NCBI RefSeq assembly: GCF_026586665.1
Contig: NZ_JAODIY010000009.1
Location: 310,001-374,000, forward strand
Length of the DNA: 64,000 nucleotides
Reading direction: 5' to 3'
From: Halovenus rubra
Lineage (GTDB): Archaea > Halobacteriota > Halobacteria > Halobacteriales > Haloarculaceae
The translations under genes and the position numbers were made by a program. This document shows, one piece after another, positions 33,788 through 37,460 of this stretch. Below the pieces are notes generated by a model. The model worked only from the letters and a program-made list of their open reading frames with translations, was not told the DNA's origin and did no database searches. The number at the start of each line of letters is the position of its first letter. The stretch's first letter is position 1.

Positions 33788-34198
33788 TTATTGGTCTTCA
33801 AGTGCGTCGGCGATACGGTCGAGAGAACGACGGACATCGTGAACTTCGTCACGAAGTTTACGCATTTCTCGAACCATCTCCTCGTTGTCTTCGCTCTCCT
33901 CGCCACGGCTTGGTGAGCCACCCATTGGGCTGCCACCCATCGGGCCGCCACCCATACCACCGCCGCCGCCACCTCCACCCATCATACCGCCCATCATCTG
34001 TGCAAACGGGTTTCCACCCATGCCACCGCCGCCACCCATCATCTCTTCTGGGGGCTCAGGACGGCCTTCTCCGTCTTCATCTTCGCGCTCGGCGCGCTGC
34101 TGTCGAATTTCTTCAACTCGCTCACGGAACGATTTTTCGTCTCCCTCGCCGGACTGTTCAGGTTCGTCACTGGCGCTTGTTTCGTTGTCGTCTGCCAT
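33788..34198 (-). CDS. Gly/Met-rich acidic protein of unknown function
   Basis: 136 aa. Residues 1-50 are highly charged and helical (F-R-E-R-V-E-E-I-R-Q-Q-R-A-E-R). Residues about 53-96 are a low-complexity Gly/Met/Pro run with repeated M-M-G-G-G and G-G-S-P-M units. The last 35 residues form a predicted coiled coil (M-R-K-L-R-D-E-V-H-D-V-R-R-S-L-D-R-I-A). The central tract resembles those of chaperonin tails or gas-vesicle accessory proteins but is not diagnostic. Codon use in the flanks is regular, so I believe it is a real gene. Confidence 0.6.
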   Translation of the reverse strand: MADDNETSASDEPEQSGEGDEKSFRERVEEIRQQRAEREDEDGEGRPEPPEEMMGGGGGMGGNPFAQMMGGMMGGGGGGGGMGGGPMGGSPMGGSPSRGEESEDNEEMVREMRKLRDEVHDVRRSLDRIADALEDQ

Positions 34199-34264: not shown

Positions 34265-35539
34265 TCAGGGTTCGCCGACAATAATCACGCCGTACATGCC
34301 GTCTTCCTCGTGTGGCTCCGAGACAAACTCATGGGTGCCTTCCTGTTCGAACGTAAACTCATGGACGTACCCTTCCTCTTTAGTTTCTGGAACGCCACCC
34401 CACTCTGCATCACTTGGCTGTTGGTTCGTGGGAACAATGTTGTGTCCGCTGGAGTTCCAGACGAACTTCACTGTTGTGCCGGGCTTGATTTCTGTGACCT
34501 CAGGAGAGAATCGGTTTTCTCCGTCAGGGCCAACCTCGATAGTAATCGATTCGGTTTCTTCCTCGCCTTTTTCAGTGTTGTTGTCTCCGACATCCCGGTC
34601 TGCCTCGACAAGGTAGTCGGCAATGTTACCCACCAGAACGTCGTTATCTGCACGTTGTGTATTCTCCGGGGTGAGGAAATCAGTGTCTCCGATAAGAGCC
34701 ACATTCTGATCACGGACGAGAACTGGCTTCTCGGTTTTCTCACGTGTTACGGACAGTTCGCTTCCCTCGATTGGGAGCATCGTCTCATCTTGGTTGCTCG
34801 CCTGAACGGGGGTTGCCGAAGGGAACACGACCCGCTCGACATCTTCTGTCAGCAACTCGGTCCCAGACGGTTCAGTGAAGATACGCTGATAGTTCAGGTC
34901 GTTTTCCGCGAGGTTGTAAACGTATCCCGGCTCGGTGAAGACGCCGAGGTTGCTATAGGTCTGAGAATGACCGGCACCGAATCCGAACTCTTGGGTCGGT
35001 TCGACGCCCATAACTATTCGTCCATTCTCTTCGACAAAAGTATCGATTGCGTTGAGGTCTTGGTCAGTGTACGTCGTGACACCGAGGCTGACAAGCCCCT
35101 GTGCACCCTCAAGGTTGCCCGTTAGCTGGGACCCATCGTCACCCGTCGGTGGAGCGATCTGGTCGACAGTTCCTTTCGCAAACGTGATTTGTCCGCCGCC
35201 AAACTGCCTGCCCTCCTGTGCGAGAACCGTAACTTCATGGCCGTTCTCGATAAGCGTGTTAACCAATGGTGCGATATCACGCTGTGTATAGGCCGCCCCA
35301 ACGTGGACAACAACCTTCTTTTGGAACGCAGTACTGTCCATTTCAACGCTTGCTTCTCCCGGTGAGCTGTCCGAAGCGACCCGTTCAGCGTCAAATTGTG
35401 GGTTCTCAACTTCGATGTGGTCTGGGCCGGTCGTACTTTCACCGTCATCGATAACAACGCTTGCGACGCCACCGACAGCAACAACCACAACGAAGACCGC
35501 AATAAACGACACAATCGCTGTTCGTGGTGCCTTACTCAT
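34265..35539 (-). CDS. Membrane-anchored DUF4350-like protein with cupredoxin domain lacking the copper Cys
   Basis: 424 aa. An N-terminal transmembrane helix (about 8-30) anchors it. Residues about 70-320 form a GATase-like/DUF4350-like alpha/beta domain (V-V-V-H-V-G-A-A-Y-T, V-T-V-L-A-Q-E-G, V-A-L-I-G-D-T-D-F-L). Residues about 335-424 are a plastocyanin/halocyanin-like domain with His366 (S-S-G-H-N), His410 and Met415. The copper Cys position is Ser407 (F-V-S-E-P-H where F/Y-x-C-x-P-H is expected; codon TCG), so a type 1 copper site should not form. The start overlaps the S49 protease stop in an ATGA. Confidence 0.75.
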   Translation of the reverse strand: MSKAPRTAIVSFIAVFVVVVAVGGVASVVIDDGESTTGPDHIEVENPQFDAERVASDSSPGEASVEMDSTAFQKKVVVHVGAAYTQRDIAPLVNTLIENGHEVTVLAQEGRQFGGGQITFAKGTVDQIAPPTGDDGSQLTGNLEGAQGLVSLGVTTYTDQDLNAIDTFVEENGRIVMGVEPTQEFGFGAGHSQTYSNLGVFTEPGYVYNLAENDLNYQRIFTEPSGTELLTEDVERVVFPSATPVQASNQDETMLPIEGSELSVTREKTEKPVLVRDQNVALIGDTDFLTPENTQRADNDVLVGNIADYLVEADRDVGDNNTEKGEEETESITIEVGPDGENRFSPEVTEIKPGTTVKFVWNSSGHNIVPTNQQPSDAEWGGVPETKEEGYVHEFTFEQEGTHEFVSEPHEEDGMYGVIIVGEP

Positions 35540-36579
35540 GAGTCGTCACCTCCGTTTTCTTCGACTGCCTTGGCAACCACTTCCTCAATATCCGGCGACG
35601 ATACCGTTTCGAGTTCCTCAAGGCGTGGTACTGCCGGGCGGTAAACCAGCGCGTGGTCAACCGGCTTAATATCAGCTATCGATGGGTCTTCATCGTAGAT
35701 TGCGACGATTCCCGAATCGGTCTGTGCGAAAATCGGAATACTCTGTGCGCCCCCGACCTCGCGCTCGGTAATTTGATACTCTTCGAGATCAGCCCTGCTG
35801 GCGGCATCTTCGATAGCATCATCGAGTGAGCCGATTTCGTCTGCGTATCCATTTTCGACACTCGTGACGCCCAAGAAGACTTTCGCCGTCGAGACTTCTT
35901 CGCGGCTGAGTTCGATCCGGTCACCGCGCTGTTCCATCACTGTCTCGATGAAGTTGTTTCCGAGTGCTTCTAGCTGTGCCCACTGCTGAATGGTGTTCGA
36001 ACCGCGCTTGTCCGGACCGCTTGGGCCCTGAACAGGTGGGGTTGGTTGTGGGGCACTCGCGGCAAGGCCAACACTCCCAATCTGGGATGACGGGAGCGCA
36101 TAGATGTCCTCGGCAGGCGTCATCATGTAGTACCCTGCGGAGGCACTCAGTCCCTGAACGCTCGCAAGAACAGGCATCTGCTTATTTGTTCGCTGTATCG
36201 AGAGATACATTCGTTCCGTGGGCGCAGGGGCACCACCGGGTGTGTTCATTTTCAGAACAACGGCGTCAATAGATTCGTTACCGCGAATCTCACGGAGTTC
36301 ATCTTCCAAGTTTTCACCAATTGGTTCCATTATTGGGCCCTCTATCGAGACAACAGCGACCGTCCCGTCTGCATCAGAAGCCGCTGAGCTACCAGCAACA
36401 CCAAACGCCAGCGATACAACGGCGACACCAGCAACGACCGCTGCGACCGCAGCCAGCAAGATTATCGCGTACCGCTGGCCGCTGGTAGTCTCGGAGGGAG
36501 TTCTCTGCCCAGTACTCGAAGAGCCGTTTACGCCTTCGCTACTCTCCGTAGCTGGACTGTCGGTTTCTTCGGAGCTCAT
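35536..36579 (-). CDS. Membrane S49-family peptidase (SppA-like)
   Basis: 347 aa. A disordered N-terminus is followed by one transmembrane helix (about 38-62), leaving the protease domain outside the cytoplasm or on the membrane surface. SppA/ClpP-fold motifs are V-A-V-V-S-I-E-G-P-I, V-L-K-M-N-T-P-G-G-A-P, and the nucleophile region S-V-Q-G-L-S-A-S-A-G-Y-Y-M; the Lys of the Ser-Lys dyad is probably in P-D-K-R-G-S. SppA cleaves signal peptides or membrane protein remnants. It is translationally coupled to the cupredoxin-like gene. A minus TATA (TATATATACGG, about 36603-36614) lies about 28 bases upstream. Confidence 0.85.
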   Translation of the reverse strand: MSSEETDSPATESSEGVNGSSSTGQRTPSETTSGQRYAIILLAAVAAVVAGVAVVSLAFGVAGSSAASDADGTVAVVSIEGPIMEPIGENLEDELREIRGNESIDAVVLKMNTPGGAPAPTERMYLSIQRTNKQMPVLASVQGLSASAGYYMMTPAEDIYALPSSQIGSVGLAASAPQPTPPVQGPSGPDKRGSNTIQQWAQLEALGNNFIETVMEQRGDRIELSREEVSTAKVFLGVTSVENGYADEIGSLDDAIEDAASRADLEEYQITEREVGGAQSIPIFAQTDSGIVAIYDEDPSIADIKPVDHALVYRPAVPRLEELETVSSPDIEEVVAKAVEENGGDDS

Positions 36580-36602: not shown

Positions 36603-36614
36603 CGTATATATATG
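36603..36614 (-). promoter_or_regulatory. Promoter of the S49 protease operon
   Basis: A TATATATA element on the minus strand, about 28 bases upstream of the ATG at 36579, implies a short or absent leader. Confidence 0.5.
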
Positions 36615-36701
36615 TTGATGGAGCGACTTTTTAGCTATTATTTATCGATCGTCTTGGGGGAGTCGAACCGTTTTTCAGTCGAACACCCTCACCTGAGGAG
36701 T

Positions 36702-37460
36702 ATGGAGGTACTCGTCGTCGGAGCCGGTTCAATGGGTCGATGGCTCGGACAGGTGTTTGTGGCGGATGTTGGTCCCTCATTGCCAGCCACAGCACGCGAC
36801 GAGTGCACTGTCACCTATTACGACCGCAGTAACGCAGCCGCAACGCAAGCCGCAAAAGCAACCGGCGGTCATACTGTAACATCGGTGACACAGGAGTATG
36901 ATGTGGTTGCAATAGCAGTACCAATATCAGCAGCCCCTACGGCTATCGCGTCCCACGCAGGAAACGCAACCTGTGCAGTTGTCGACGTGACAGGGACAAT
37001 GAAAAAGCCGGTCGAAGCGCTCAGGTCGAACGCCTCAGCGGTTGAACGGTGTAGTCTGCACCCACTCTTTGCCCCACCAAACGAGCCGGGGAACGTGCCT
37101 GTTGTCACCGACAAAGATGGACCAGTGACGACATTCATCCAGGAAACACTCGAAGCACGTGGTAACAACGTCTTCGAGACGACACCTGAAGAACACGATA
37201 GCGCGATGAAGACAGTACAGGCAAGCGCTCACGCAGCGATTATGGCGTACAGTCTTGCCGGTGAAAGCGTCCCTGACAGGTTCCAGACAGCCGTTTCAAA
37301 AGAGTTGTCAGCACTTGTCGAACAGGTCGGAGGCAACGAACCAAGCGTGTATGGCGAGATTCAGGCAGCCTTTGAGGGTGCAGAAGACGTAGCGGCAGCC
37401 GCAAACAAGCTCGCGGTGGCGAGTGAATCGGAGTTTGAGCAATTGTACGACAAAATCTAA
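36702..37460 (+). CDS. tyrA: Prephenate dehydrogenase
   Basis: 252 aa, haloarchaeal TyrA, which oxidatively decarboxylates prephenate to 4-hydroxyphenylpyruvate in tyrosine synthesis. The N-terminal NAD(P) site is V-L-V-V-G-A-G-S-M-G-R-W. V-V-D-V-T-G-T-M-K and the catalytic region S-L-H-P-L-F-A-P follow; the latter provides the conserved His. The C-terminal helices form the dimer domain. The start ATG 36702 is preceded by GAGGAG, so this gene uses a ribosome site. It is 11 bases upstream of the Rsm22-like gene. Confidence 0.88.
   Translation: MEVLVVGAGSMGRWLGQVFVADVGPSLPATARDECTVTYYDRSNAAATQAAKATGGHTVTSVTQEYDVVAIAVPISAAPTAIASHAGNATCAVVDVTGTMKKPVEALRSNASAVERCSLHPLFAPPNEPGNVPVVTDKDGPVTTFIQETLEARGNNVFETTPEEHDSAMKTVQASAHAAIMAYSLAGESVPDRFQTAVSKELSALVEQVGGNEPSVYGEIQAAFEGAEDVAAAANKLAVASESEFEQLYDKI

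Follow-up and report, generated by a model that had tools for sequence, protein, structure and literature searches.

Halocyanins are one-electron carriers of haloarchaea, and a fusion of the genes for halocyanin and an oxidase subunit (halocyanin/cbaD) is described in excerpts of PMC8305020. The DUF4350 proteins of arCOG01314 are presented in excerpts of Makarova et al. (2015; PMC5898192) as membrane-anchored relatives of GldG with a large extracellular domain, a signal peptide and one C-terminal transmembrane segment, and their genes are mostly located beside genes for vWA and AAA+ proteins, in a predicted secretion complex. Cupredoxin-family proteins that are unable to bind copper have been described as early nodulin-like phytocyanins (ENODL; excerpts of PMC4499708). 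The available excerpts of a review on haloarchaeal proteases (PMC4343526) mention no partner of the DUF4350 or halocyanin kind, and neither a DUF4350-halocyanin fusion nor a copper-less halocyanin domain was found in the titles and abstract openings listed from the open-access literature. The locus presented here is built from parts of known kinds, but their combination, with a conserved loss of copper, was not found in these titles and abstract openings.

The window, by which we mean the whole stretch of 64,000 nucleotides that was analysed, comes from a haloarchaeal assembly of 3.57 Mb (contig label G000:C48). It contains a gene for an S49 (SppA-like) membrane protease, followed by a gene for a DUF4350/GIFT-like protein with a halocyanin-type domain at its C-terminus (Table 1). 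Both open reading frames were recovered, as was the short overlap by which an earlier interpretation of the DNA letters, hereafter the sequence-only reading, had considered the two genes to be coupled. Our preferred explanation, to which we assign a probability of roughly 55%, is that a halocyanin domain without a copper site was gained once and works as a module for recognition or scaffolding, carried by the protein that partners the S49 protease.

Table 1. Features of the S49 protease gene and the fusion gene, in window coordinates.
Feature	Position	Strand	Remarks
DUF4350/GIFT-like protein with C-terminal halocyanin-type domain (P0001)	34265..35539	-	424 aa
S49 (SppA-like) membrane protease (P0002)	35536..36579	-	347 aa; Pfam Peptidase_S49, 1.8e-16
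ATGA stop-start overlap, 4 nt, S49 gene upstream of fusion gene	35536..35539	-	
N-terminal membrane helix or signal, residues 4-25	35465..35530	-	helix in structure model (low confidence) and hydropathy
DUF4350/GIFT-type alpha/beta domain, residues 72-314	34598..35326	-	DUF4350, ABC_transp_aux; fold matches
Cupredoxin (plastocyanin/halocyanin) domain, residues 330-424, without copper Cys	34268..34552	-	
Ser407 (TCG) at copper-Cys position	34319..34321	-	alignment and codon
His366, first His ligand position	34442..34444	-	invariant in 4/4 fusions
His410, second His ligand position	34310..34312	-	H, Y, H, A over the four fusions
Met415, axial position	34295..34297	-	invariant in 4/4 fusions
Ser147 (in SASAGYY) of the S49 protein, at the position of the active-site Ser in SppA	36139..36141	-	invariant in 9/9
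Lys191 of the S49 protein, candidate general base (putative role)	36007..36009	-	invariant in 9/9

Each of the two window proteins has one N-terminal hydrophobic stretch in the hydropathy analysis. In the fusion protein, values of at least 1.6 (19-residue windows) were confined to residues 1-34, and no C-terminal transmembrane segment was found by this measure. The likeness to arCOG01314, as far as that group is characterized in the excerpts, is a DUF4350 match at the level of the family and a membrane-anchored protein that is predicted to face outward, but the window protein differs in its single hydrophobic stretch at the N-terminus, its tail of cupredoxin type and the S49 gene next to its own. 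A scan of six window ORFs, namely the fusion gene and five around it, found no genes for vWA proteins or AAA+ ATPases.

In the Pfam search, DUF4350 (PF14258) matched seven of the ten aligned family members at E ≤ 1, with a best value of 1.2e-6, and ABC_transp_aux matched nine of the ten at the same threshold. Where seen in the six proteins that were scanned singly, both profiles scored below their curated cut-offs; the orthologue G098:C19 barely exceeded the DUF4350 gathering score (30.6 versus 30.4 bits). The label "DUF4350-like", given by the sequence-only reading, thus holds for the family, given the seven members that match at E ≤ 1 and the one orthologue over the cut-off, but not for the window protein taken alone, for which no DUF4350 match was obtained from Pfam at E ≤ 1. 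A control search with DUF4350 also gave a match in the laboratory haloarchaeon Haloferax volcanii. A match to IFT52_GIFT was also obtained for three of the ten members (best E 0.061). In a structure model of middling confidence (mean pLDDT 63.8, pTM 0.54), residues 72-314 were most similar to IFT52 among the solved structures listed (Z 17.2, rmsd 2.8, 203 residues), and likewise resembled chain G of the yeast oligosaccharyltransferase (Z 15.6, rmsd 3.0, 200 residues), which we take to be subunit OST48/Wbp1. The alpha/beta fold of this middling-confidence model is shared with IFT52 GIFT and OST48/Wbp1 at a sequence identity of 13-14%, with no evidence of a shared function.

The neighbouring protein belongs with the S49 proteases of the SppA and 1510-N type: Peptidase_S49 matched all nine aligned members of its family, and the family profile matched solved SppA and 1510-N chains. 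The register of Ser147, which is found at the place of the catalytic Ser of SppA, is backed by the solved SppA chains, while those shown did not align over the region of Lys191. In a redundant set of 84 loci, 81 contain an S49 gene beside a DUF4350-type gene on the same strand, so that the proposed coupling to an S49 protease is borne out as a lasting gene pair. A stricter script counted 79 pairs, the other two being duplicates of the window locus with its overlapping genes. As for the three loci without the pair, L024 starts at the edge of a contig, and no S49 match was obtained within the stretch covered for L061 and L079. An ATGA or GTGA overlap was identified by script in 18 of the 30 first-search loci, one of which (L012) is probably spurious, and the remaining 12 showed no overlap; all four fusions described below are among the 18, and in each of them the overlap is ATGA.

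The C-terminal domain is a cupredoxin by sequence and by fold. Pfam Copper-bind (PF00127) matched residues 340-421 (E 7.5e-10, 39.6 bits, cut-off 21.2), and TIGR03102 reached 56.9 bits, which is under its curated cut-off of 93.8. Residues 331-422 of the structure model were superimposed on plastocyanin over 91 residues (Z 11.8, rmsd 2.2). In an alignment to solved pseudoazurin and plastocyanin, Ser407 falls in the column of the Cys, and His366, His410 and Met415 fall in those of the other three ligands; the His, Cys, His and Met at the aligned plastocyanin positions are the copper ligands. The domain match and the alignment to solved proteins agree in this respect with the sequence-only reading, which had proposed a cupredoxin with Ser407 (codon TCG) in place of the copper Cys. 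The fusion protein of 424 residues contains no Cys at all.

Among the matches listed for 146 genomes of the family were four full-length fusions, and none was found outside the Halovenus group among those listed for 392 genomes of the order; distant fusions with separately matching halves could escape such searches. The carriers are the genome of the window, G097 (SHR40), G108 (Halovenus sp. B1Sed10_238R1) and G104 (Halobacteriales archaeon QH_2_65_14), two of the four sequences being from metagenome-assembled genomes. The window protein is 53-54% identical to the other three. All four, including the window protein, have Ser in the Cys column, encoded by TCG, TCC, TCC and TCC, and His366 and Met415 are invariant among them. 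Conservation of Ser407 in homologues, on which the sequence-only reading had made its proposal depend, is therefore observed, and none of the four fused proteins has the Cys that would have spoken against it.

We compared the fused domains to other halocyanin-like domains from the ORFs of the fetched loci, which were selected as best matches and do not amount to a census. In the profile search, Cys was present at the ligand column in 103 of 107 distinct domains (three of 110 rows were dropped because their ligand columns were empty), and the four exceptions are the four fusions. A first-pass count of the same kind gave Cys in 81 of 85 domains, with three of 88 rows dropped. In the genome of the window, all 12 other halocyanin-like domains with filled ligand columns have Cys, one of 14 rows having been dropped for empty columns. 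Phylogenetic analysis of 83 domains placed the four fused cupredoxins in one clade (100/88) among the Cys-bearing domains, in a tree with few columns, open forks, an unplaced sister group of the fusions and a bootstrap that had not settled. The fused domains thus share fold and sequence family with halocyanin and plastocyanin (PF00127, TIGR03102) and are placed among Cys-bearing domains, but differ from them in having Ser for the copper Cys in four of four cases and in missing the second His in two of four. Of the features of a type-1 copper domain, the fold and the family sequence are present and the Cys ligand is absent throughout the group; together with the variation at the second His, this indicates that none of the four retains an intact type-1 copper site of the usual kind.

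A few observations concern the Cys-bearing domains themselves. ORFs of 656 aa (L116, G108:C11) and 642 aa (L183, G332:C16) contain five cupredoxin domains in a row, each with the full set of His, Cys, His and Met. A 553-aa ORF in the genome of the window (L113, G000:C34, about 327128-328600) contains four halocyanin domains in which Gln takes the axial position of Met. Over the domain set, the axial position is occupied by Gln in 18 domains and by His in four.

The fused domain is under marked constraint. Mean pairwise identity among the four fusions is 61% in the cupredoxin, 56% in the DUF4350 part, 44.5% in the N-terminal part and 21% in the linker, and the branch lengths of the fused domains in the cupredoxin tree fall inside the range of their Cys-bearing relatives. 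On the evidence of these sequences, the cupredoxin shows no sign of decay. The retention of the fold under strong constraint makes a copper-free recognition or scaffold role the most likely one, and the domain is probably a piece of this kind rather than an electron carrier. Such a function would be the simplest for a domain of this sort. The ENODL, as depicted in the excerpts, are a precedent for a copper-free cupredoxin, but as plant proteins of another architecture they serve only as an analogy.

According to this preferred explanation, the DUF4350/GIFT protein would be a membrane-anchored and probably outward-facing partner of the S49 protease, in a putative complex with it, and its core would be the alpha/beta domain whose genes adjoin S49 genes throughout the sampled haloarchaea. 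A normal halocyanin domain, with its Cys, may have been joined to the C-terminus via a short linker in a single Halovenus-group lineage, with the change from Cys to Ser predicted to precede the split of the four species and the second His now missing in two of them. The copper-free domain, kept for its shape or surface, could then help to bring substrates or proteins of the envelope close to the protease. On the other side, gene order alone does not show a physical complex, the invariant His366 and Met415 would also fit some remaining metal role, two relatives lack the domain at the syntenic locus, and the case is built on four sequences, two of them metagenome-derived, and on a model of middling confidence. 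The locus offers a clear-cut archaeal example of a blue-copper domain whose copper site was lost under continued strong constraint, in a protein whose gene is paired with that of a membrane protease. The wider S49-DUF4350 pair of the haloarchaea sampled, with its GIFT/OST48-type fold, is a candidate, open to testing, for a protease that has a receptor subunit of its own.

The history of the fusion bears on the best-surviving alternative, which is that the domain is a passive relict of an accidental fusion, drifting without a function of its own. In Halovenus aranensis and H. salina the neighbouring genes are the same, but the protein stops short of the cupredoxin, which must hence be dispensable there. 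The H. salina matches extend beyond the stop codon (to residue 340 or 358), and a cupredoxin remnant behind it was considered but dropped: in the same frame the score was reached by 174 of 300 shuffled copies, and in the other frames by 300 and 14 of 300, so that the stretch holds no convincing remnant. For the three frames after the stop in H. aranensis, the score was reached by 264, 91 and 32 of 300 shuffles. In the DUF4350 tree, these two species are found among the fused proteins with weak support (84/32, 93/88, 88/82), with the long-branched unfused protein of L013 unplaced beside them, and in the S49 tree the branching order was not settled. The fused four were recovered as one clade in 0% of 200 bootstrap trees for either protein, while the well-supported branches in both trees are still compatible with such a clade. 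Taken with the single cupredoxin clade, these trees make one gain of the fusion and one later loss the simplest, if not a proven, history. A drifting relict would fit the two relatives that lack the domain, their weakly supported position among the fused proteins and the variation of the ligands (H, Y, H and A at the second His). We nevertheless regard it as rather unlikely, since the cupredoxin is more conserved than the DUF4350 domain and far more so than the linker, the frames are open in all four genomes, and the branches are no longer than those of Cys-bearing relatives.

Another possibility, which we judge somewhat less probable than a relict, is that copper or some other metal is still bound by the domain in the absence of the Cys, through His366, His410 and Met415 in a type-2-like or Cu(I) site, and acts as a sensor or store for the protease pair. 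The first and third of these residues are invariant in the four fusions, and the statement of the sequence-only reading that all three remain is correct for the window and one relative. It does not extend to the group, because the second His is replaced by Tyr and Ala in the other two fusions. A metal function common to the group is therefore unlikely, though the window protein alone may still have one, and the idea that a His/His/Met set has been kept for metal is weakened accordingly.

It is also conceivable, but improbable, that the domain mimics halocyanin and docks on respiratory complexes, thereby recruiting the S49 protease to control the quality of these complexes. The ligand loop is part of the docking face in plastocyanins, and in the fusions this loop has been changed, with the His lost in two of four and with acidic triplets (EED, QDE, EEE, EEE) ahead of the Met, an objection that is softened by a few Cys-bearing relatives that are likewise acidic before the Met. 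In favour of docking are the grouping of the domain with Cys-bearing halocyanin-like domains, and the role of halocyanin as an electron carrier with a known fusion to an oxidase subunit (excerpts of PMC8305020). Finally, errors of sequencing or assembly and a strain-specific mutation, for which nothing spoke, can be rejected as the source of Ser407, since Ser is present in four different genomes and TCG is two bases away from both Cys codons. An origin of the fusion by frameshift or misassembly was likewise ruled out by the open frame in all four genomes.

Fifteen DUF4350-type places were fetched, most of which have an open frame that reaches or exceeds about 400 aa, and no cupredoxin domain was found by profile search at loci L006 to L085. 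The gene pair is far more widespread than the cupredoxin, which is known from four genomes among the matches and is missing from the syntenic loci, and the pair can evidently work without it. The DUF4350-type protein of Halovenus LUM.6 (L039:4953-6422, the same locus as L008) carries another kind of C-terminal extension, about 170 residues long, and a Pfam scan of its full length at E ≤ 0.01 yielded DUF4350 and ABC_transp_aux but no other family. As a tentative extension of the preferred explanation, doubtful as a whole, an electron-carrier domain of respiration may have been turned into a copper-free specificity module on a DUF4350/GIFT protein that is the substrate receptor of the S49 protease. 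Its C-terminus would be a lineage-specific slot for recognition domains, filled by the copper-less halocyanin in four species and by the other extension in Halovenus LUM.6. For the role of this C-terminus, the four fusions and the two fusion-free relatives constitute a natural experiment.

The gene pair is flanked by two further ORFs. Downstream of the fusion gene, a Met/Gly-rich ORF of 136 residues (33788-34198, minus strand) has no Pfam match above the cut-off; it is kept in L032, L033, L035 and L036 and was not found in L034. On the other side, the divergent gene adjoining the S49 gene (36612-37460, plus strand) matches the N-domain of prephenate dehydrogenase (29.3 bits, cut-off 26.5), and a gene of this type is located beside the S49 gene in L032, L033, L035 and L036 as well.
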